From Nitrospinaceae bacterium (GTDB taxonomy: Bacteria; Nitrospinota; Nitrospinia; Nitrospinales; VA-1): a DNA stretch of 64,000 nt. Below, in pieces: positions 24,081 to 34,517 of the stretch. The first letter of the stretch is position 1, and every line of letters starts with the position of its first letter. Position numbers and translations under genes: made by a program. Location of the stretch: assembly GCA_021604505.1 (NCBI GenBank), contig BQJC01000003.1, positions 62,001 to 126,000 of the forward strand, in the 5' to 3' direction. The notes beneath the pieces were generated by a model. That model ran no database searches, was not told where the DNA came from, and saw nothing but the letters and a program-made list of their open reading frames with translations.

Positions 24081-25169
24081 ATGCGCAAACCCCTCTACAT
24101 AAGGAAACCAGCCGCTTTAGCTCTCAGCATTTTCCTCATATTTTGTTGGTTGCCCGCCGCAAATGCAGAGCCACCCCTTAGGTTCGGGGGATGGGTGACT
24201 TACTGGGATTTCAAGCGAGGGATGAACACCGTCTTTGAAGGAGCGGGTATCTATAAGGACATTTTCCTGTTTTCCACCCTGTTGGATCCGGATGGAACTC
24301 CCAGCAAAGTCAATTCAGAAACCGTCAACTACCCCTCCGCCCTTAAACGTTTAAAATCCTCAGGCTTTCAACCCTGGTTGACCATTGTTAACGATGTCAA
24401 ATCCCCCCAGGGAAATAAAGCCATTCTGAAAGATCCAAACCTCGTTCACCAAATTTTAAAAGAGGATGAATCGCGCCGCAAACATCAGCAGAAAATAATT
24501 GATTTCGCGAAAACGTATGAAGTCACAGGGGTGGACATCGACTATGAAAACCTTTTTCCCGGTGACCGGCTTCCCTTCACCCGGTTTATTTCGGAACTGG
24601 CCAAAGATCTTAAAAAACAGAACCTGTCACTTTCCGTCACCGTCCAACCTAAAACCGGGAGATCATCGAGTCAGGGAAAGGGGGCAATGGATTGGTCCCA
24701 GATTTGCCGGCACGCGGACCGGTTACAGATCATGCTGTACAATTTACACAACCCAAAAACCCAGCCGGGTCCGGTGGCCACTCTCGATTGGATATCCAGT
24801 GTCCTCAAGTATGCCAAAAACCAATGTGATCCGAAAATCATCGTGCCCGTTCTTAAAGTCAGCGGGATGCATTGGAGCTCCAGAAAGAATAAAGCGATTC
24901 AATACGACCAGGCGATGGATTTAAAAACCAGACACGGCGTAAAATTAGAACGGGAAACCGTCAGCAAAGTCCCTTATTTTTCTTACCGAACAGGTACTGA
25001 ACGCGGGACCGTCTACTTCGAAGATGCGCACAGTCTGAAAATAAAAATCGAACACATCAAATCCTTGGGGTTCGAAACAATCGTTTTCTGGAGTTTCGGC
25101 AGGCAGGACCCCGAGTTGACCTTTCAACTGAAAGAATTTTTAAAACCGGTAGCCAAGGACGGCTTGTAA
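24081..25169 (+). CDS. Secreted GH18-like glycoside hydrolase
   Basis: Exported protein (362 aa, signal peptide cut after LPAANA) with a TIM-barrel of the GH18/spore-germination chitinase type. The active-site strand is TGVDIDYEN (residues 149-157), matching DxxDxDxE with its first Asp replaced by Thr but with the catalytic Glu156 kept. Other barrel marks are FGGWVTYWD at the start, LQIMLYN, and VFWSFGRQDPEL at the end. The ATG at 24081 begins the signal peptide; an upstream in-frame ATG at 23982 would put 33 unlikely residues in front. Its end overlaps the polysaccharide exporter gene by 30 bases, tail to tail. Possible role: trimming the polymer made by that locus; this is inference. Confidence 0.78.
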   Translation: MRKPLYIRKPAALALSIFLIFCWLPAANAEPPLRFGGWVTYWDFKRGMNTVFEGAGIYKDIFLFSTLLDPDGTPSKVNSETVNYPSALKRLKSSGFQPWLTIVNDVKSPQGNKAILKDPNLVHQILKEDESRRKHQQKIIDFAKTYEVTGVDIDYENLFPGDRLPFTRFISELAKDLKKQNLSLSVTVQPKTGRSSSQGKGAMDWSQICRHADRLQIMLYNLHNPKTQPGPVATLDWISSVLKYAKNQCDPKIIVPVLKVSGMHWSSRKNKAIQYDQAMDLKTRHGVKLERETVSKVPYFSYRTGTERGTVYFEDAHSLKIKIEHIKSLGFETIVFWSFGRQDPELTFQLKEFLKPVAKDGL

Positions 25170-28100
25170 GTTCACGCTGTCGTAGCCCGGAACGACTGAA
25201 AATTTAGTCGCCAGACCGGCTTTTAGTTTACGGGTCAGAAAGTAATCAAAATTGAATCCGCCGTTGGTCGCCCAGCGAACTCCATGGACTTTATCGTCCG
25301 CGCCTCCCAGGCCCAAATCAGCCCGAACTTCGGCATCCTGACCCAGTTTACGTTGATAAAGAATCCTGGCGAAGCCGATCAGCAGTTGATCGGGAGTGTA
25401 ATATTCTCGGGCTTCAAAGTCGGAATCCCTGAAAGAAAGGTCGGCTCCAATTTTCCAGTTTTTTAAACCAGGCAACCGATAGCGTAAACCGGTTCGAATA
25501 TCAAATCCCGCATTGCCGTCGTCATAATCCTGATAGGCCATTCCCATTTTACCGAGAAGAGCCGGGGAAAACCGGGTCTGGTACCCCAGACTGTAGGTTT
25601 TTACCTGAATTCCATTCTCTATGGCCTGGACCGTATCGATGTCCTGTCTGGCCCCATTAAACTGAAACGTGTGAACATTTCTCTGGTATTTTGCCGACAT
25701 CCAATAGTTCTGCGTGTCCTTTCTTTGCGACAGAGTGCGGTGCCGAAGCTTTCCTTCCAACTGCAAAAAATTCCATCCTCTCCAGTGAAGCCCCGCACTG
25801 ACGTGACCTCCGTCAATGTCCGGCCGACCCTTTTCTTTAAAATCTAAAATCCCCCCTTCCAGCGCCAACTCCAGCGGAACCTTCAGGGGAAAGTACACTT
25901 TGGCCGATTGAGAATGATTGCTCCGGTCGTTGGAATCGCGGAAAAAGTTGAAGCGACCCAAAACGCGGGGACGGTTTCTCCAGGCCAGCGCCTCCCGCAA
26001 AGCTTCCACTTTAGGGTTGAGAACAGATTCCTGATCGGGAATGCCGTCCAGAAGATTTTCTGAATCCCAGGTGTTTCCTCCCTGGTAAGAAATATCGGCA
26101 AGATAGAATTGCAATTTATCTTTCAACCGGGGTTCTCGTAAAATCAGACTGGAAAACGTTTTTTCAGCATCCGAGTAATGGCCATTCCAATACTGGGATT
26201 TTGCCATTGCAACCTGAGCCATATGAGAAGGATGCGCTTCTACGAGATGCCGGACCAGTCGATCCCCATCCCAGTCGCGCGGAACGGAAAAACGCCGCAG
26301 TAAAGAAGTGTTGCTATCACCCGGTTTCACCTGGTTGTATCCTGTCGAATCCTGAATAAAACCGAACTTAAAATATTTCTGCAGAAGAGTCCGGTTAACG
26401 GCTCTCGCGGAGTCCGCGTTTCCGTTTCGCGATTGCCCCGCTTCCGAAAAAGGATACGCGTACCCGACCACGCTCAGGCCCGGAATTTCAGTTTTCAGGA
26501 GATTGATATTCCGCTGATAGTCCCCATCCAGGCGAGCATAAAATTCAGTTGCGGTTTCCTGCCGGTTATTTTTGTTCAACCACCGGAAGTTGGTCAGAAA
26601 ATTTCCCTCCCCTCCTTTAGAGTCGATGGCAACCCTATCATGCGCTTCATGCCCGTGAGCCTGAAGATCCCAACGGCCCGACCCTGCGTATTCGCGGAAC
26701 CGGTTCCAATCGGCAAAAAAGGGGGCGCCATCATGAATTCTGGCTGTGGGAACAAACATAGTGGCTTTCATGCCGTATTTTTTTAGTATCGGGTCTCCAA
26801 GTCGAAACGCATCGCGGCGGCCGTCATCAAAGGTGATCAAAATCGGCTTTTCAGGAAGAGGTCGTTTATTATTCAGAGCATCCCCCAACTCAGCCACCGT
26901 GAGAGATGTAAAACCCGCATCGACCAGGGCTTTTAATTGCTCATCAAAGCGCTCGACCCACAAATTGCGGTTCCGGGCATGACCGCTCAGTCCGTGATAC
27001 AGCAAAATGGGGATGTATTTTCCTGGCTCCGCTGGGTTTGCAACGCGCCAATAATACCTTTTCGCGGCATCCAGGTCGTTCATCGCGGTCATGAGATTTC
27101 CCATTTCCAGATTGACTTCATAATCCTTGAAGAATATCTCCTGCTTCGATTGCAAATGACGCATCGCTTCTTCCATACGTCCAAGCGCTTTTAACGAGTG
27201 GAAGGTGCCTATGAACGCCCTTCGGTTATCGGGGTGGATTTTTCCAATATCCTTAAAAACCGCAAGCGCGTCCTCGTACTTGTTATCCTTGACCTGCAAA
27301 TCCCCGATGGATAGCTGAATTCCCACATCGTCCGGGAATTTTTTTTGAGCCTTCTTTAGGAGAGAATCGGCGTCGGCAAGTCGGTCCAGTTCCACATAAA
27401 GTTTTGCCAATAGCAACCAGTCGCCTGCCTGATCTTCATGATTTTTCAATAACGTTTCATACCAGAACACAGCTTGTTCTTGGTCCCGGCGAAACAAGGC
27501 ATCGTCAGCCAGAAATTTAATGATTGGCTTATAAGGGCCATTTTGGCTAATAAAATTTTTGGCCTCCTTGACGGATGTTTCATATTCACCCATCTCGTAG
27601 AGGCACTGAATCCAATAAAAATAGGCCCGTGGAGAATTCGATCCCATGTCCAATACGCTCCGCCACTGAGCCAGTCCCCTTTTAAAGTCCTGGCCCTGCA
27701 TCAACACCTCGCCATAAAAATACTGGATAGGAAGATGGCCGGGAAACTCCCGAACGATACGACTCATTTTTCCTAAAGCCTCTGGATACTGCTTAACCCA
27801 ATACAACGCTTTCACTTCCAATAGTTTTTGATCAGGTTGATTGGGAGCAACCTTCAAACTCCGTTCCAGCACCGACAATGATTTTTCATAATCTCCTTGG
27901 TCCAGATAAAACCGCGCCAGCAAATTATAAGGTTCCGCTTTCCCCGGAAATTGCTTTTGATATCGCTTCCATATTTTTTCGCTTTCCTGCCTTTCTCCCG
28001 CATTCCAGTAAAGCCAACCCAGGTCCCGATAGGCCGCGGAGTTTTTATCATCGTGCGAAAGCGATTTCTCATAATTCAATATTGCGTGCGGAACATTTCC

Positions 28101-29333
28101 GGCTTTCCGCTCACGGGCGCCCATTTTGCTATACAACCTTGCCAAAGCCTTGTTGGTCACTTCCGAGTTTGAGGAATGAGGAAGACGCTGAAGAAAAAAC
28201 TCGAGCCCCTGATCAATAGTTTCATGGCGGATGAACTGGTTCGCCGCCGTCAAAGACCATTCCCGATCGGCTGTGTCTGACCTGAAAGCCTGTCTTAAAG
28301 CCGTCACCGCTCTTGGAACACGCTTTTCTTTCAGCGCCAGTTCAAACAACCGAAAATGTAAATTTTCTCCTGACGAATCCATCCGTGCGGCATTCTGGTA
28401 CCAAACCTCCGCCTCCGACGTCTGACCGGAATGATAGTAGGCACTCGCAATCTGATGGAATAGCTGAAATCCGGTAAACCCCTGATCCACAATTTTTAAC
28501 CAGGCTTTTACCGCTTCATCGTATTTTCCCTGTTTTTCCAGGGCCCATCCCAGGCTATCCAACCGAGTTCTATGGTCCGGCTCCCAGTTCAGAGCTTGTC
28601 TATAAACCGCCTCTGCTTTTTGAAATTGGCCCTGCTGATAAAATTCGTCTCCCTGGCGGGCATAGAGGGAGGATAACCTGACCGCCACCCACTCAAATTT
28701 TGCCTCGTTGGGAAAAGTGGAATACGAATCTAAATAATTTTTTAATAACGAAATCGACAGATCCCGCTGACGCAAGGATTCATAGGCGTCAGCAAGGTGA
28801 GTGAAAGCTTCCCAATGGTCCGGCTGTAATTCTAAAACACTTTTGAAAAGATCCCTGGCGCGACCCGTTCGTCCCATTTTTTGGAGGGCTTTTCCCAAAC
28901 GAAAGCGAACGAGAGTTTGAGCGGGTTCCAGTCTCAGGCTTTCGTTCAGGTGCCGGATGGCGCGGCGCCATTGATTTTCTTCCATCAGCAAAAACCCAAC
29001 GGCGTTTCTGATTTTCCGATTTTCCGGATCGACTTTGAGGATGGTCTCCCAGGTTCGAAGCGCTTCCTGCATTTGTCCAGATTTATAATAAGCCCAACCC
29101 AGATTTTCCCAGGCCTTCATGTGTGCCGGGTCAAGAGTTGTTGCTTTTTTAAACGCGGTTAACGCTTCCTCATATCGACCTTCTTTGAAATATTGGGTTC
29201 CCTGATCCAGAGCCTCCTGTCCGGGGCTCCTGGCAAAAGCCAGGGGTTGAACCCAAGCCAGCTTCAAAACGCAAAGAGTGACAAAACAAGAAAAAATCCT
29301 TACGTTTAAAAAACCGAATTTAGATAAAATCAC
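25140..29333 (-). CDS. TPR - polysaccharide deacetylase - outer-membrane beta-barrel fusion exporter
   Basis: A 1397-aa protein that joins what are usually separate parts of a PNAG-type system. Signal peptide about 1-34; tandem TPR units about 35-770 (first: YFKEGRYEEALTAFKKATTLDP); a CE4/NodB-type deacetylase about 774-1015 with PILLYHGLS, metal-binding TFDDG (834-838) and LQAHGHEAHD (about 889-898); two more TPR-like helices; then a beta-rich C-terminus about 1125-1397 ending in VLGYRF, with the terminal Phe typical of outer-membrane barrels. So PgaA-like (TPR plus barrel) and PgaB-like (deacetylase) functions are in one chain. The start is GTG with weak ribosome site; it lies 23 bases after the pseudo-deacetylase gene. 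Confidence 0.85.
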   Translation of the reverse strand: MILSKFGFLNVRIFSCFVTLCVLKLAWVQPLAFARSPGQEALDQGTQYFKEGRYEEALTAFKKATTLDPAHMKAWENLGWAYYKSGQMQEALRTWETILKVDPENRKIRNAVGFLLMEENQWRRAIRHLNESLRLEPAQTLVRFRLGKALQKMGRTGRARDLFKSVLELQPDHWEAFTHLADAYESLRQRDLSISLLKNYLDSYSTFPNEAKFEWVAVRLSSLYARQGDEFYQQGQFQKAEAVYRQALNWEPDHRTRLDSLGWALEKQGKYDEAVKAWLKIVDQGFTGFQLFHQIASAYYHSGQTSEAEVWYQNAARMDSSGENLHFRLFELALKEKRVPRAVTALRQAFRSDTADREWSLTAANQFIRHETIDQGLEFFLQRLPHSSNSEVTNKALARLYSKMGARERKAGNVPHAILNYEKSLSHDDKNSAAYRDLGWLYWNAGERQESEKIWKRYQKQFPGKAEPYNLLARFYLDQGDYEKSLSVLERSLKVAPNQPDQKLLEVKALYWVKQYPEALGKMSRIVREFPGHLPIQYFYGEVLMQGQDFKRGLAQWRSVLDMGSNSPRAYFYWIQCLYEMGEYETSVKEAKNFISQNGPYKPIIKFLADDALFRRDQEQAVFWYETLLKNHEDQAGDWLLLAKLYVELDRLADADSLLKKAQKKFPDDVGIQLSIGDLQVKDNKYEDALAVFKDIGKIHPDNRRAFIGTFHSLKALGRMEEAMRHLQSKQEIFFKDYEVNLEMGNLMTAMNDLDAAKRYYWRVANPAEPGKYIPILLYHGLSGHARNRNLWVERFDEQLKALVDAGFTSLTVAELGDALNNKRPLPEKPILITFDDGRRDAFRLGDPILKKYGMKATMFVPTARIHDGAPFFADWNRFREYAGSGRWDLQAHGHEAHDRVAIDSKGGEGNFLTNFRWLNKNNRQETATEFYARLDGDYQRNINLLKTEIPGLSVVGYAYPFSEAGQSRNGNADSARAVNRTLLQKYFKFGFIQDSTGYNQVKPGDSNTSLLRRFSVPRDWDGDRLVRHLVEAHPSHMAQVAMAKSQYWNGHYSDAEKTFSSLILREPRLKDKLQFYLADISYQGGNTWDSENLLDGIPDQESVLNPKVEALREALAWRNRPRVLGRFNFFRDSNDRSNHSQSAKVYFPLKVPLELALEGGILDFKEKGRPDIDGGHVSAGLHWRGWNFLQLEGKLRHRTLSQRKDTQNYWMSAKYQRNVHTFQFNGARQDIDTVQAIENGIQVKTYSLGYQTRFSPALLGKMGMAYQDYDDGNAGFDIRTGLRYRLPGLKNWKIGADLSFRDSDFEAREYYTPDQLLIGFARILYQRKLGQDAEVRADLGLGGADDKVHGVRWATNGGFNFDYFLTRKLKAGLATKFSVVPGYDSVNLQAVLGYRF

Positions 29334-29356
29334 AACGGATTGTCAGACGCTTCCGC

Positions 29357-31369
29357 TTAGATCCACCCGGACTCTGGCATGCGCTCTTTCAAAAGTTGGT
29401 GTGACTTGATGGGCTGGTGAATGTCCGGCCTGCCTTCGGTCGTGATAAGTAGCCGGCAGTCCATTTTGTCCAGCTTCGCCTCAAAAGCTGAAAAGCTGGG
29501 GAACCATTCCGAGTTCGCCCTCATTTCCCATTGACTCAAGTCCAGATGCACATGAGTCCAGCGATTGTGTTCCACCAATGTCTGAATTGCAGACATCCAC
29601 AAGGTAATCACCTCTTCACGCTGGCCCGTCTCTGCACCTTCATTTTCCGAATCTGGGTTAAATTTTTTCCCCGGCAAAAGCTTTACAGTTGGAATAAAAT
29701 CCCAACCATATCGGTGGGAAATGATTTGAAACAGGTCTCTATCGAAAGGAACCATAAGGAACTGGTCTCCTTGAACCAGATGAGTGACCGTTGTCACTCC
29801 TGAGACCTTTTCAGAAAGCTTGATCAGGTTTTGAATGTCATTTTCTTCCGGATATTTTTCCAACCAACGTATGTCATGCGGAAAAAATGAGACTTCAGCA
29901 TCCGACAACCCCAGCGCACCTTGTCCATCCTTTGACCAGACCCGAATCTCAATATCCCCATTCAGCCTGCCTTGCAAATAAACAGGTAATTCCCAAAGAG
30001 GTTTCCCTTCCCAATTGACGATGACTCCCTTTCCCCTTTTGATCAGCCGCAAATGATGCCAAATACCGAATGGGATTCCCGGTCCGGTACTGGCAAGATT
30101 TTCGTAACGGTTGTTGTCCATTCGATACTGTAAATGGATGTTATCTTCATTACCTCCCAACCGCCATTCATCCCCTTGCCTGCGGGAATTTTGACGAACC
30201 CAGAATTCACCGCGGTCTAAACGGATGTTTGCATTCAAGGTCCAGTTGTCCGCTTGACTTCTTCCTGGCTTGAAGATCACGGTTCCGGGAGACCCTCGAA
30301 GATGGGCTTCCGGTTTTGTACCGGGATCATGAACCAGGCTCAGTTCTTGCCCTGATAACTTAATGGAGTGGCCCGAGGTATCCACCCGTTCGCCTTTTCC
30401 GGTAAACCACACAGAGTCTTCCTGGGTGGCTTTCTGTTTTAGAACCGCTGTCGTCTGAATGGCTTTATTTGTCAAGGCAAGCAACGTCTCTGGTTGCCAG
30501 CCGGGTTGAACCCTGAGCCGCCTCAGCCGGAACGGATCGGATCTAATGTCATTGACCCCGACAAAACTATCCACGAATCCCAATTGAAAAAATTGTTTCA
30601 AAGCTTGATCATTTTGTTTTGAAAGTTCACGGTAAAGAGAAGAATAAGCCAGGATTTTATATCCAGATATATTTTCCGCGATCATGTCGCGACTGATCTT
30701 ATAATCCTGAAGAACCCTTGCGGAATATTCGTGGTCACTTTCCTCCCTTCCCCCTTCTTCAATCCAGGCCTTGTGAGTGAGATATCGGCCCACGACTTGG
30801 TTTTCAGCGTCCGTCATCACTTCACGACTGCGATGCCCCGCGGAAACAATGCTCCAAATCCCGCTATCGACCATCCGCCGCAATCGATCCCAGTAAAGAA
30901 AAAAGGTCTCCCGCTGATCGATCGCATCGGTGATCAGAGCAACCGTCGCAGGCCATTTAATTTCTCGAAGAACAGGATCAACCACCGAAAAGGTCTCCAG
31001 GTATCCATTGGCAAAAATCAGCAGAAGCGATTTCTCCGGCAACTTGCCATCTTTGTAATAAAAGTTAAAAACATCATTTACGGAAACCGCTTCAAATCCA
31101 CTCTGAGCGAGGGCCGTTAGCTGATGACGCAACTGCTCCTGATGAACAGGGTCTTCGTTTTCCCCCCAAACCACCCGGTCAAATTCCAGAACCGTTAAAG
31201 TTGCCTGACTGGACACGGGTCCCTTCCAGGAGCGGAGTTCAACAGGATCGACTTCCCTAATGCTTTCCGTTGCCCAAAAGAAAATCAGCGCAAACAGAAT
31301 CAGAGCGCCCCACGCAAATTTATCTCTTTTAAAAGTTTTAGAAGCATAGGCCGTTTTTTGATCGCTCAT
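29357..31369 (-). CDS. Membrane-anchored pseudo-deacetylase with concanavalin-like domain
   Basis: Protein of 670 aa in the polysaccharide operon. One membrane helix (about 18-36) anchors it in the inner membrane with the rest in the periplasm. Residues about 55-300 follow the NodB-homology fold (LTVLEFDRVVW, VNDVFNFYYKDGKLPEKSLLLIF, WPATVALITD), but the catalytic TFDDG is IFANG (119-122) and the metal histidines are reduced to GHRSRE (178-183), so it should be inactive. About 340-505 is a beta-sandwich of LamG/laminarin-like style (WHHLRLIKRGKGVIVNWEGKPLWE). The C-terminal 160 residues recall the barrel-like C-terminal half of PgaB (VHLDLSQWE). It starts 3 bases after the synthase. Likely a polymer-binding chaperone. 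Confidence 0.72.
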   Translation of the reverse strand: MSDQKTAYASKTFKRDKFAWGALILFALIFFWATESIREVDPVELRSWKGPVSSQATLTVLEFDRVVWGENEDPVHQEQLRHQLTALAQSGFEAVSVNDVFNFYYKDGKLPEKSLLLIFANGYLETFSVVDPVLREIKWPATVALITDAIDQRETFFLYWDRLRRMVDSGIWSIVSAGHRSREVMTDAENQVVGRYLTHKAWIEEGGREESDHEYSARVLQDYKISRDMIAENISGYKILAYSSLYRELSKQNDQALKQFFQLGFVDSFVGVNDIRSDPFRLRRLRVQPGWQPETLLALTNKAIQTTAVLKQKATQEDSVWFTGKGERVDTSGHSIKLSGQELSLVHDPGTKPEAHLRGSPGTVIFKPGRSQADNWTLNANIRLDRGEFWVRQNSRRQGDEWRLGGNEDNIHLQYRMDNNRYENLASTGPGIPFGIWHHLRLIKRGKGVIVNWEGKPLWELPVYLQGRLNGDIEIRVWSKDGQGALGLSDAEVSFFPHDIRWLEKYPEENDIQNLIKLSEKVSGVTTVTHLVQGDQFLMVPFDRDLFQIISHRYGWDFIPTVKLLPGKKFNPDSENEGAETGQREEVITLWMSAIQTLVEHNRWTHVHLDLSQWEMRANSEWFPSFSAFEAKLDKMDCRLLITTEGRPDIHQPIKSHQLLKERMPESGWI

Positions 31370-31372
31370 GAT

Positions 31373-33016
31373 TTATCGCGTCCCCCAATGGTTTTGCCGA
31401 ACGGTAAATAAGGCGTAATAAGTTTGCCAGACCAGAACCAGCATGTAGAAAAACGAAAACGATATTCCGTAGACCCACAAACGGGTGCGAAAAAAAGCCA
31501 GGTAAACCAGACTGTAAAGGCCCGCCATTAAAACGGCCCCATAGATATAGAGATAGGAAAACGGCCAGAACCCCAAAAGCGGAAGGACAACGGCATTCAA
31601 CACAATGAAGGGAGCGATGACCGGAAACAACACCCCCGAATAATAGAAAAAAGCCGCCACGGGATGCCGCTTCCACATGAAGAAGCAAGCCAGAAAACTT
31701 TCCCGAATCCAGGATTTTTTCCAGCGAAGCTGTTGCCGAAAAAATATTCCATATTTTTCCGGAACGATCGTGGTGCACACCGCCTCGGCATGGTAGATCA
31801 CCCGGTATTTTCTGAGCATGAAATTGGTCAAACTGCGGTCATCCCCAAAGGTGGCTTGAATGCCAAGAAACTTCTGATTCAGCCACACATCGAGGATGTC
31901 CATCACGTATTTGCGCCTGTAAGCGGCGAAACATCCCGAACAACAGGACACAGTTGAAAAAAGCGATTCCGCCGCTTTGATCACCCGGAAAGCGACAAAA
32001 TACCGGACATCCTGCATCTTGGTCAGGGCATTGACTTTTGCATTGGCCACATTGGCGTGCCCGCACACGGCACCGACATCGCTGTCATAAAACCCCTGCA
32101 CAATTTTGTACAGGCCGTCTGGCCGGATGAAGCTGTCCGAATCGATGTATACAAGAATCTCACCCTTCGCCATGCGGGCTCCGATGGCCATGCCATGCCG
32201 TTTTCCCCGGTTCTCTTCAAAATTCACCACCCTTAACGAGGAATGATCCTCAGCCGACCGTTGCATTTCCTTTAAAGTACCGTCGGTGGACCCGTCATTC
32301 ACTGCGATCACTTCAAAACGGTCCTTGGGGTAATCCGACCGGTACACGCAGTCAATCGTACGGCGGATAGAGTCTTCTTCATTTTTACAGGCGATCACCA
32401 CGGTGACCGTAGGAAAGTGATCTCTGTCTTCAGGCGGTTTGTAAAATGCGGAAAATAAAAATCTGGAAAGGATGTAGATGGAGATAATTATGCTGTAGGC
32501 ATTGAAAACGGGTTGATACCAAAAATAAAAAACATTAAACCATTTCAAATACAAAACATTAAGAGTGCCTAGAACAAGAAGGAGAGTCACCAGCTTGGGA
32601 AGAAACTTAAAAAACCGGTATTTTAAAATTCCCTTTTTATCGTTGGCAAACTCAAGTCCGTAGGTGTACTTTGGCGTAGCAGACTCTTTTCCCGATTCCT
32701 GATTTTCAACGGTTTCCCAAACCACTTTAGCCTTGTCATTCCAGGCGGATTGAAGAAGCGAGCCGGAACCATTTTTCTTAACGGAGTCGTCATAGGTAAG
32801 GGGGTGAATCCATGCCCCCTTTTTAAGCGGATGCGGCGTGGAAATTCGGGCTCCCCCAAAACCAATATCAAGCAAATCGGCTCGCAGTTTTGTTTCTTTG
32901 CAAAACGGCTTGAGATCGGAAAAAAAGAAACCCGCCTTTAAAGGCTTGCGTCTGAAATTCCTCTCTTCCTGTTTGCGGCGCGAAGCCCAGGGAAAATCTC
33001 CCTTTTTTTGCGGCAT
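31373..33016 (-). CDS. PilZ - GT2 polysaccharide synthase (NodC/hyaluronan synthase type)
   Basis: Inner-membrane synthase of 547 aa, first gene of the operon. The N-terminal cytoplasmic part is PilZ-like, with RNFRR (RxxxR, about residues 19-23) and LLDIGFGGARI, where the usual Ser of D/NxSxxG is Gly. Then two membrane helices (about 140-195), a GT2 domain with VVIACKNEEDSI, NDGSTDGT, DSD (about 292-294), GDDRSLTN (about 391-398) and QQLRW (about 428-432), and four or five C-terminal helices. The GDDR...QQLRW pair resembles NodC and class I hyaluronan synthases more than PgaC (EDI...QRLRW). The product is thus probably a beta-linked GlcNAc-containing chain, made when c-di-GMP is high. ATG at 33016 with GAGGAT upstream. 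Confidence 0.83.
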   Translation of the reverse strand: MPQKKGDFPWASRRKQEERNFRRKPLKAGFFFSDLKPFCKETKLRADLLDIGFGGARISTPHPLKKGAWIHPLTYDDSVKKNGSGSLLQSAWNDKAKVVWETVENQESGKESATPKYTYGLEFANDKKGILKYRFFKFLPKLVTLLLVLGTLNVLYLKWFNVFYFWYQPVFNAYSIIISIYILSRFLFSAFYKPPEDRDHFPTVTVVIACKNEEDSIRRTIDCVYRSDYPKDRFEVIAVNDGSTDGTLKEMQRSAEDHSSLRVVNFEENRGKRHGMAIGARMAKGEILVYIDSDSFIRPDGLYKIVQGFYDSDVGAVCGHANVANAKVNALTKMQDVRYFVAFRVIKAAESLFSTVSCCSGCFAAYRRKYVMDILDVWLNQKFLGIQATFGDDRSLTNFMLRKYRVIYHAEAVCTTIVPEKYGIFFRQQLRWKKSWIRESFLACFFMWKRHPVAAFFYYSGVLFPVIAPFIVLNAVVLPLLGFWPFSYLYIYGAVLMAGLYSLVYLAFFRTRLWVYGISFSFFYMLVLVWQTYYALFTVRQNHWGTR

Positions 33017-33377: not shown

Positions 33378-34517
33378 CTATCGCCTGCTCTTTTGCGGCT
33401 TCCATTCTGCCGCCCATTTCTGCGCCTCTGAAATTTGCTTGGGCGTCATGTGCTCTTCGGCCAAGCCCCTGTAACGAACAGCGTCTTTGTAGCCCGTAAC
33501 CCCCGCGAGGTTGAACCACATATGGGCCTGGACATAGTCCTGAGCGGCTCCCTGTCCCTTAAGATAACTCCATCCAAGATTGAATTGGGCTTGAGGCAAC
33601 CCCTGTTCCGCCGCCCGCCGGTACCATTTCAGAGCTTCGCTATAATCCTGAGGAACCCCTCGTCCATTGTCGTACATCCACCCGAGGCGCAGTTGAGCGT
33701 CAGCCTCGCCCTGAGCCGCGGCCATTCCATACCACTTGAAAGCCTTTTTATAATCCTTTGAAACCCCCCGTCCGTTGCGGTACATGCACCCAAGGTTTGC
33801 CTGAGCCCGTCCCAGCCCCTGGTTCGCCGCCAGCCGGTACCATTTCAATGCTTCCCTGAAATCCTGCGAAACACCAAGGCCCTTGCGGTACATCCAACCC
33901 AGATTAAATTGAGCTTCCACCTGCCCCTGTTCTGCCGCCAGCCGGTACCACTTGAGAGCTTCTCCGTAATCTTGTGAAACCCCAAGTCCATTCCGGTACA
34001 TCCAGCCCAGGTTGGATTGAGCTTCGGCCAAACCCTGTTCCGCTGCCAACCGGTACCACTTCAGAGCTTTCTCAAAATCCTGAACAGCTCCCTGTCCACT
34101 GGAAAAAATCAGCCCCAGGTTAAATTGGGCCAGGGCTTTTCCCTGTTCGGCCAGAGCCTTAAACTTTTCAATTGCAGTTTGAAAATCTCCCTGGACGTAA
34201 GCTTTAACGCCCATTTGGAAATCCGCTTCAGCATTGACATTGGCAAGTTTCGCCACGCCCTGGAGGGAAGTTTTAGGGTCTTTATTGAAATGGGTTGCTA
34301 AACCAATTTGGAAGTCGGCCTCTTCATCTGCAAAGGTCACTATTGGGGTTAAAAGGAAAAGGAAGACCAGCGCTTTACAAATACTATTTTTAACTAAAGG
34401 GGGGGATGGGGAAATACCGGTGACGTCGAAACCGATATCCGGCGGGTTTTGCGATAAGCCCCTCTCTGCCCATATAAAACAAGAGGGACGAAAAATATCT
34501 CCCCTGTTTTGAAACAT
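33378..34517 (-). CDS. Sel1-repeat protein
   Basis: Protein of 379 aa with one TPR-like unit (GVKAYVQGDFQTAIEKFKALAEQG) followed by six Sel1-like repeats of 36 residues, each of the form AQxNLGWMYRxGxGVxQDYxEALKWYRLAAEQG. The repeat is also obvious in the DNA, with a 108-base period. An internal hydrophobic stretch (ALVFLFLLTPIVTFA, about 49-63) looks like a signal peptide, but no ATG/GTG/TTG stands directly before it; the ATG at 34517 has AAGAGG upstream and adds about 43 residues. A C7 tract (minus strand) lies just before the hydrophobic stretch, so slippage or a sequencing error there could restore a shorter start. Sel1 proteins usually scaffold protein contacts in the periplasm. Confidence 0.85.
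   Translation of the reverse strand: MFQNRGDIFRPSCFIWAERGLSQNPPDIGFDVTGISPSPPLVKNSICKALVFLFLLTPIVTFADEEADFQIGLATHFNKDPKTSLQGVAKLANVNAEADFQMGVKAYVQGDFQTAIEKFKALAEQGKALAQFNLGLIFSSGQGAVQDFEKALKWYRLAAEQGLAEAQSNLGWMYRNGLGVSQDYGEALKWYRLAAEQGQVEAQFNLGWMYRKGLGVSQDFREALKWYRLAANQGLGRAQANLGCMYRNGRGVSKDYKKAFKWYGMAAAQGEADAQLRLGWMYDNGRGVPQDYSEALKWYRRAAEQGLPQAQFNLGWSYLKGQGAAQDYVQAHMWFNLAGVTGYKDAVRYRGLAEEHMTPKQISEAQKWAAEWKPQKSRR

Follow-up and report, generated by a model that had tools for sequence, protein, structure and literature searches.

The closest described counterparts of the locus discussed here are PgaABCD of E. coli and Bordetella, NodC/NodB together with the chitin and hyaluronan synthases (HAS), and the Bcs cellulose system. 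The locus lies on contig BQJC01000003.1 of a Nitrospinaceae bacterium (GCA_021604505.1), within an analysed stretch of 64,000 nucleotides (the window), and encodes a family 2 glycosyltransferase (GT2; the synthase), a membrane-anchored pseudo-deacetylase (the scaffold), a fused deacetylase-porin exporter (the fusion) and a secreted family 18 glycoside hydrolase (GH18). With PgaABCD it shares a GT2, a carbohydrate esterase family 4 (CE4) domain of the PgaB fold, a tetratricopeptide repeat (TPR) arm with a 16-strand porin, a hydrolase fold in the scaffold and a likely cyclic di-GMP (c-di-GMP) input. It differs in that a NodC/HAS-like synthase with a PilZ-like domain takes the place of PgaC plus PgaD, deacetylase and porin form one protein, a membrane anchor carries a second, dead CE4, and GH18 is present instead of GH153. 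The synthase core, a W-x-[TS]-R end, the predicted acetamido-sugar chemistry and a deacetylase partner are shared with NodC/NodB and the chitin and hyaluronan synthases, whereas the locus scores below the NodC cut-off, its deacetylase is PgaB-like and not NodB-like, and it has a dedicated outer-membrane exporter. The Bcs system (BcsA, BcsC, and BcsZ) likewise combines PilZ (here a PilZ-like domain) on the synthase polypeptide, a TPR and barrel exporter and a dedicated periplasmic hydrolase; however, the domain is N-terminal here and C-terminal in BcsA, BcsB is missing, and deacetylases are present.

Rearranged Pga modules have been reported. Divergent pgaB clades carry GT/PgaB-domain fusions and losses of GH153 and PgaD (PMC7112194), and our locus shares the fusion of Pga modules, the loss of GH153 and, apparently, that of PgaD. 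As far as the available part of that paper describes them, these clades fuse the GT to the deacetylase, without a porin, whereas here the deacetylase lies inside the porin protein. The bacterial division 1 chitin synthases, which according to the available part of PMC5122149 are of eukaryotic origin and occur alongside DUF1501 and DUF1800 genes, have likewise been proposed to make a chitin-type bacterial exopolysaccharide; they are set apart here by that description only. No description of the present gene set was found in a literature search whose scope left out subscription papers and preprints. As discussed below, we consider it very probable that the locus is a synthase-dependent system which secretes an acetamido-sugar polymer in partly de-N-acetylated form, and that GH18 belongs to it as an accessory.

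Organization and distribution of the four-gene block

The locus consists of four intact open reading frames (ORFs), three on the minus strand and the GH18 gene on the plus strand (Table 1). An earlier note on this DNA had presented it as a candidate complete locus for a c-di-GMP-controlled, partly deacetylated GlcNAc polymer. Our analysis supports a complete locus, from synthase to porin, for secreting a partly de-N-acetylated polymer, with GH18 as a conserved member of the unit. The gaps given there, 3 bp between synthase and scaffold and 23 bp between scaffold and fusion, are correct. The GH18 gene had been said to abut tail to tail; the orientation stands, but GH18 does more than abut, as it overlaps the fusion gene by 30 bp (25140-25169).

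The note had also proposed looking for the same gene order elsewhere. The order synthase, scaffold, fusion and convergent GH18 is found in four Nitrospinaceae genomes, i.e., in the window, L014 (genome G001), L022 (G004) and L023 (G002), and in one gammaproteobacterial metagenome-assembled genome (MAG; L024). (L015 and L016 duplicate the contigs of L022 and L023.) L024 and the window share 59% identity in the synthase, 30% in the scaffold, 31% in the fusion and 40% in GH18, and their flanking genes differ. Within the phylum, 4 of 77 genomes carry the synthase, all of them from one genus, while a protein search for GH18 in 41 relatives returned four, exactly the carriers. All four carrier genomes have a single GH18 gene, which is the locus copy, and none was found in any of the six non-carriers checked. 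Moreover, G003, a genome of the same genus, is without the whole block, GH18 included, and an amidase-like ORF (named by eye) directly adjoins an exonuclease gene; in G002 the four-gene block and three ORFs after GH18 lie between these two genes. The three additional ORFs (L113 7300-11007, between GH18 and the exonuclease gene) encode 334-389 aa, and two of them have similar N-termini. GH18 is present or absent together with the block, and the lack of conservation that the note had named as counter-evidence is not what we see.

Because the order recurs in five genomes from two phyla, and GH18 is the sole copy in four carriers, the locus is more than a product of chance; the shared order, the block-wise presence and absence and the single-copy GH18 in carriers reject chance adjacency of GH18. 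Sequence or predicted structure establishes which parts there are, how they are ordered and folded, which motifs they keep and that they are inherited together, and we regard the four-gene set as a portable synthase-dependent exopolysaccharide secretion system. The gene for a Sel1-repeat protein that precedes the synthase gene in the same orientation is placed outside the unit because it is missing at that place in L014.

Table 1 Coordinates of the locus and the neighboring gene in the window
Feature	Position	Strand	Characteristics
GT2 synthase, 548 aa	31373-33019	minus	PilZ-like N-terminus, transmembrane helices, NodC/HAS/chitin-synthase-type core, QxxRW, C-terminal WGTR
Pseudo-deacetylase scaffold, 670 aa	29357-31369	minus	Membrane anchor, CE4 of the PgaB fold that lacks the metal ligands, beta-sandwich similar to CBM66, degenerate half barrel resembling GH18
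Fused exporter, 1397 aa	25140-29333	minus	Signal peptide, TPR array, intact PgaB-type CE4, 16-stranded outer-membrane barrel
Secreted GH18-type glycoside hydrolase, 362 aa	24081-25169	plus	Glu156 kept; converges on fusion gene
Sel1-repeat protein gene	33378-34517	minus	Upstream of the synthase

A wider family was seen in a genome scan. A CE4-like match lies at most 715 nt from the synthase in all 34 scan loci and, within the fetched stretch, a fusion with barrel is present in 15; GH18 is near the synthase in four (L022, L023, L024, and L054). Kiritimatiellota and Verrucomicrobiota have the synthase with a dead CE4, often also the fusion, and GH18 is not nearby. In the phylum of L027, a profile that includes the scan loci themselves detected the synthase in 39 of 194 genomes and scored above 540 bits in 24 of these. 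Among 369 gammaproteobacterial genomes, a close synthase homologue occurs only in L024's own genome. Six other gammaproteobacterial GT2s (L067-L072; 35-38%), which are of the NodC/HAS sort and end in W[ML]TR, served as controls, and beside none of the six were CE4, GH18 or exporter matches found. An actinobacterial survey gave the synthase in 7 of 296 genomes, with a CE4-like match beside it in five of the six newly fetched loci (L095's being 1.2 kb off and L096's weak) and GH18 only in L054; the gene order in the actinobacterial MAG is GT2, CE4, GH18. A plasmid of Paenibacillus cellulositrophicus (L074) carries PilZ-GT2, a degenerate CE4 with sandwich and GH18 in that order, an independent pairing. 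A comparable pairing in another GT2 lineage occurs on a Kocuria plasmid (L077 1849-5154), where the gene for a bifunctional deacetylase/GT2 and a gene annotated as chitinase converge.

Sequence and structural features of the four proteins

The synthase matches the Pfam GT2 model with 109.5 bits and Chitin_synth_2 (PF03142) with 78 bits, above the cut-off of 27, which places it among the chitin-synthase-related GT2s; PF03142 is matched by all 33 family members scanned (E 0.05 or better). The description of the synthase as NodC-like in the earlier note is correct in so far as the NodC model TIGR04242 (174.3 bits, aligned over 34-394 of 395 profile positions) outscores the PgaC model TIGR03937 (146.7 bits), but neither cut-off (550 and 422.3, respectively) is reached. 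The homologues L024 and L074 behave in the same way (NodC/PgaC 190/147 and 193/125 bits), and the control, E. coli PgaC, shows the reverse (73/648). Residues common to all 33 aligned members are D242, D293-x-D295, D393-D394, Q429-Q430-x-R432-W433 and W545-G-T-R548. By sequence, the closest solved structures are hyaluronan synthases. In maximum-likelihood trees the synthase family is separated from PgaC and BcsA and groups with NodC, an E. faecium GT2 and the six gammaproteobacterial control GT2s; support is 100/98 in the first tree and 96/98 in the second, from which L077, L078, L080 and L054 were excluded as long or partial rows. An exclusive synthase and NodC clade is rejected by the approximately unbiased (AU) test (p 0.0001), as NodC also groups with the E. 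faecium GT2, and we therefore do not claim that the synthase is a NodC. As for a PgaD partner, the gaps between the locus genes have no room for an ORF of 80 aa or more; PgaD elsewhere in the genome was not searched for.

The scaffold has an N-terminal membrane helix followed by CE4, a sandwich and a C-terminal alpha/beta part (Polysacc_deac_1, 29.1 bits in Pfam; AlphaFold2 model with pLDDT 74). Comparison of the model identifies its CE4 fold as that of PgaB (4f9d, Z 28.4) and its sandwich as that of CBM66 (4azz, Z 14.6). As the earlier note had it, this is a pseudo-deacetylase: the metal residues D, D, H and H are replaced in the window, and among 22 aligned rows the site (Asp-Asp, His-x4-His) is complete in only one (L055, Portnoybacteria). 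The C-terminus aligns with the GH18 profile in hhalign over 57 columns spanning the active-site strand (probability 88, P 3e-6, score 46.3; 40 block shuffles reach at most 24.5 and a reversed copy 13.6), an assignment by profile comparison only; the structural alignment hardly covered that part. The GH18 catalytic Glu is not kept there, and comparison with the C-terminus of E. coli PgaB gave no similarity (P 0.67). The PgaB model TIGR03938 gives 71 bits (cut-off 321.9), and the PgaB combination of active CE4 and GH153 is not seen, the active CE4 being part of the fusion. Since both the CE4 metal site and the GH18-like Glu are lost, the scaffold looks like a double pseudoenzyme that may bind the chain. 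In L055 (280-3192), from a 0.7 Mb genome of the candidate phyla radiation, the synthase has as its neighbor an intact CE4 linked to the sandwich domain, a minimal version without porin.

The fusion contains many TPRs and a Polysacc_deac_1 domain (42.4 bits) according to Pfam, and the AlphaFold2 model of residues 771-1397 (pLDDT 88.7) has 16 barrel strands. Its CE4 fold matches 4u10 (Z 28.2) and also PgaB, and the barrel superimposes on PgaA 4y25 (Z 27.0, 270 residues, root-mean-square deviation 2.5, 16% identity) as well as on BcsC 6tzk (Z 27.0) and PelB 9h80 (Z 26.3). By sequence the PgaA model TIGR03939 gives 70 bits against a cut-off of 366.65; the PgaA-type architecture of TPRs and a 16-strand barrel is present. 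The CE4 site (TFDD and HxxxxH) is kept in the window, and 7 of 11 aligned rows, the window included, have all metal residues; three of the other rows lack the second His, and in L022 this region is deleted.

GH18 passes the PF00704 cut-off (90.8 against 29.6 bits). With the start at 24081, residue 156 is the Glu in the motif GVDIDYEN, in agreement with the earlier note that Glu156 is kept. DIDYE is present in all five orthologues, and E156 is invariant in six of six rows including Paenibacillus.

Proposed mechanism and identity of the polymer

In our model, the inner-membrane GT2, with its N-terminal PilZ domain sensing c-di-GMP, would polymerize UDP-GlcNAc and thread the chain outwards. The membrane-anchored periplasmic scaffold, through its dead CE4, CBM66-like sandwich and dead half GH18 barrel, would hold and guide the nascent chain. 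The outer-membrane fusion would then take the chain by its TPR arm, its CE4 would strip some of the acetyl groups, and the 16-strand barrel would release the product; the fusion would in this way cover the roles of PgaA plus the deacetylase half of PgaB. Finally, the secreted GH18 may trim or clear the chain, as do BcsZ and the PgaB hydrolase domain in their systems. Such a swap of trimming hydrolases would be mechanistically natural, since the available part of PMC5933820 describes the GH153 hydrolase domain of PgaB as similar in fold to GH18.

For c-di-GMP binding, the identity of the sugar, its linkage and the substrate of GH18, we infer from these comparisons. With modest confidence, we favor a chitosan-like product, a beta-1,4-linked, partly de-N-acetylated N-acetylglucosamine (GlcNAc) polymer, because of the kinship of the synthase, its GH18 partner and the GH18-like part of the scaffold. 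Characterized GH18 enzymes mostly cut beta-1,4 GlcNAc bonds, which makes a beta-1,4 product the most likely one. The earlier note had called the polymer chitosan-like rather than PNAG (poly-beta-1,6-GlcNAc). This is plausible, in line with a synthase nearer to NodC; a Pga-type deacetylase and porin, and a tree test that does not reject the PgaC grouping, are among several observations that weigh against the chitosan-like reading and that are considered here with the alternatives.

In one alternative, the product is beta-1,6 PNAG or something close to it, and the locus is a Pga system rearranged by fusion of PgaA with the PgaB deacetylase and by replacement of GH153 with GH18. Membership in a simple Pga operon is ruled out by profile scores under the Pga cut-offs; as the source of the product, a Pga-derived system is an unlikely but serious rival. 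The CE4 and barrel folds are those of PgaB and PgaA, BLAST with the CE4 domains recovers PgaB and not NodB, and a clade of synthase and PgaC, when enforced, is worse by 7.2 log units but is not rejected (p-AU 0.096). Moreover, MatAB of Streptomyces, a GT2/CE4 system of another kind, makes a chitinase-resistant PNAG according to the available part of PMC5972031. Against this, the synthase scores higher with NodC than with PgaC and has the WGTR end that is absent from E. coli PgaC, and profile comparison found no GH153 similarity in the scaffold C-terminus or in GH18. We also know of no substrate-assisted GH18 that cuts beta-1,6 chains.

A second alternative, compatible with any polymer, concerns GH18 itself, which might cut peptidoglycan and open the wall for the exporter. 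The solved structures nearest to it are YaaH 4s3k (E 2.2e-17), a "probable chitinase" (5jh8) and SleL 4s3j, and YaaH and SleL, the closest with known roles, act on peptidoglycan as cortex-lytic enzymes. We nevertheless think this role improbable: Pfam reveals no LysM or other wall-binding domain in GH18, GH18 is also paired with a porin-less Gram-positive operon, and the dead GH18-like half barrel of the scaffold suggests that the fold suits the chain.

The polymer could also be mixed, hyaluronan-like or containing a uronic acid of GlcNAc. This possibility arises because related GT2 genes adjoin nucleotide-sugar dehydrogenases: in E. faecium and Curtobacterium the adjoining gene encodes a nucleotide-sugar or UDP-glucose dehydrogenase, and an ORF for a TviB-like UDP-GlcNAc C6-dehydrogenase (L074 6070-7314), omitted from the plasmid gene table, lies just upstream of the Paenibacillus synthase and hints at a uronic acid there. 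The hyaluronan synthases as best solved matches point the same way. For the locus itself we rate a mixed polymer as quite unlikely, as no dehydrogenase lies inside the contiguous four-gene block in the five genomes, and acetamido sugars are the substrates of both the deacetylases and GH18. The TviB-like dehydrogenase does mean that not every family member necessarily makes a pure GlcNAc chain.

It is very improbable that GH18 is an unrelated neighbor kept by local synteny. Such a view would fit the 30 of 34 scan loci in which no GH18 was seen near the synthase (many of these stretches end at contig ends). Against it, a gammaproteobacterium whose flanking genes differ has GH18 in the same tail-to-tail position, the block is present or absent as one, the carriers have no other GH18, and the Paenibacillus pairing is independent.

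Several further observations count against our model. The GH18 profile gave only one weak, distant match in 26 Kiritimatiellota-type genomes. In L022 (8722-10407, G004), the fusion deacetylase reads FDGG (TFDG-like) and is short of about 70 residues, the His motif among them, so that the metal site is lost; an undeacetylated chain may therefore be exported there, or the deletion may be a MAG error. As to the c-di-GMP input, the PilZ-like domain covers about residues 15-130 of the synthase, and the N-terminal 189 residues of the synthase give 17.6 bits with PF07238, below the cut-off of 22.5; the Nitrospinaceae orthologues are also below it (L014 17.7, L022 18.1, and L023 13.7); the gammaproteobacterial L024 (39.2) and the Paenibacillus L074 (29.8) are above it. 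The c-di-GMP motifs of PilZ are RxxxR and [DN]xSxxG. The window synthase has RNFRR and DIGFGG at these positions, with Gly in place of Ser, and L024 has RANPR and NGSRGG. Synthases of the Kiritimatiellota type (e.g., L027 9740-10160) carry a zinc-ribbon-like N-terminus with CxxC/CPFC where those of Nitrospinaceae have PilZ, which suggests a different switch. Judged by homology, the PilZ domain of the synthase is real, without being general across the wider family, and c-di-GMP likely controls the locus.

Implications for marine bacteria and synthase-dependent secretion

Tentatively, and with somewhat less confidence than we attach to a chitosan-like product, we propose that the locus represents a widespread and so far undescribed class of bacterial-chitosan secretion systems, defined by a PilZ-gated NodC/chitin-synthase-type synthase, a double pseudoenzyme scaffold and a one-piece deacetylase-porin. 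This class may extend over Nitrospinota and Gammaproteobacteria, with a related form in Kiritimatiellota/Verrucomicrobiota and in Gram-positives.

The one-piece deacetylase-porin offers a natural test of how modification and export are coupled in synthase-dependent systems, and the conserved dead scaffold raises the question of what service a pseudo-deacetylase provides to the growing chain. If the product is chitosan-like, a polymer generally associated with fungi and animals would have bacterial producers among the relatives of marine nitrite oxidizers and in many Kiritimatiellota, which would bear on the nitrogen and carbon of marine aggregates and on biotechnology.

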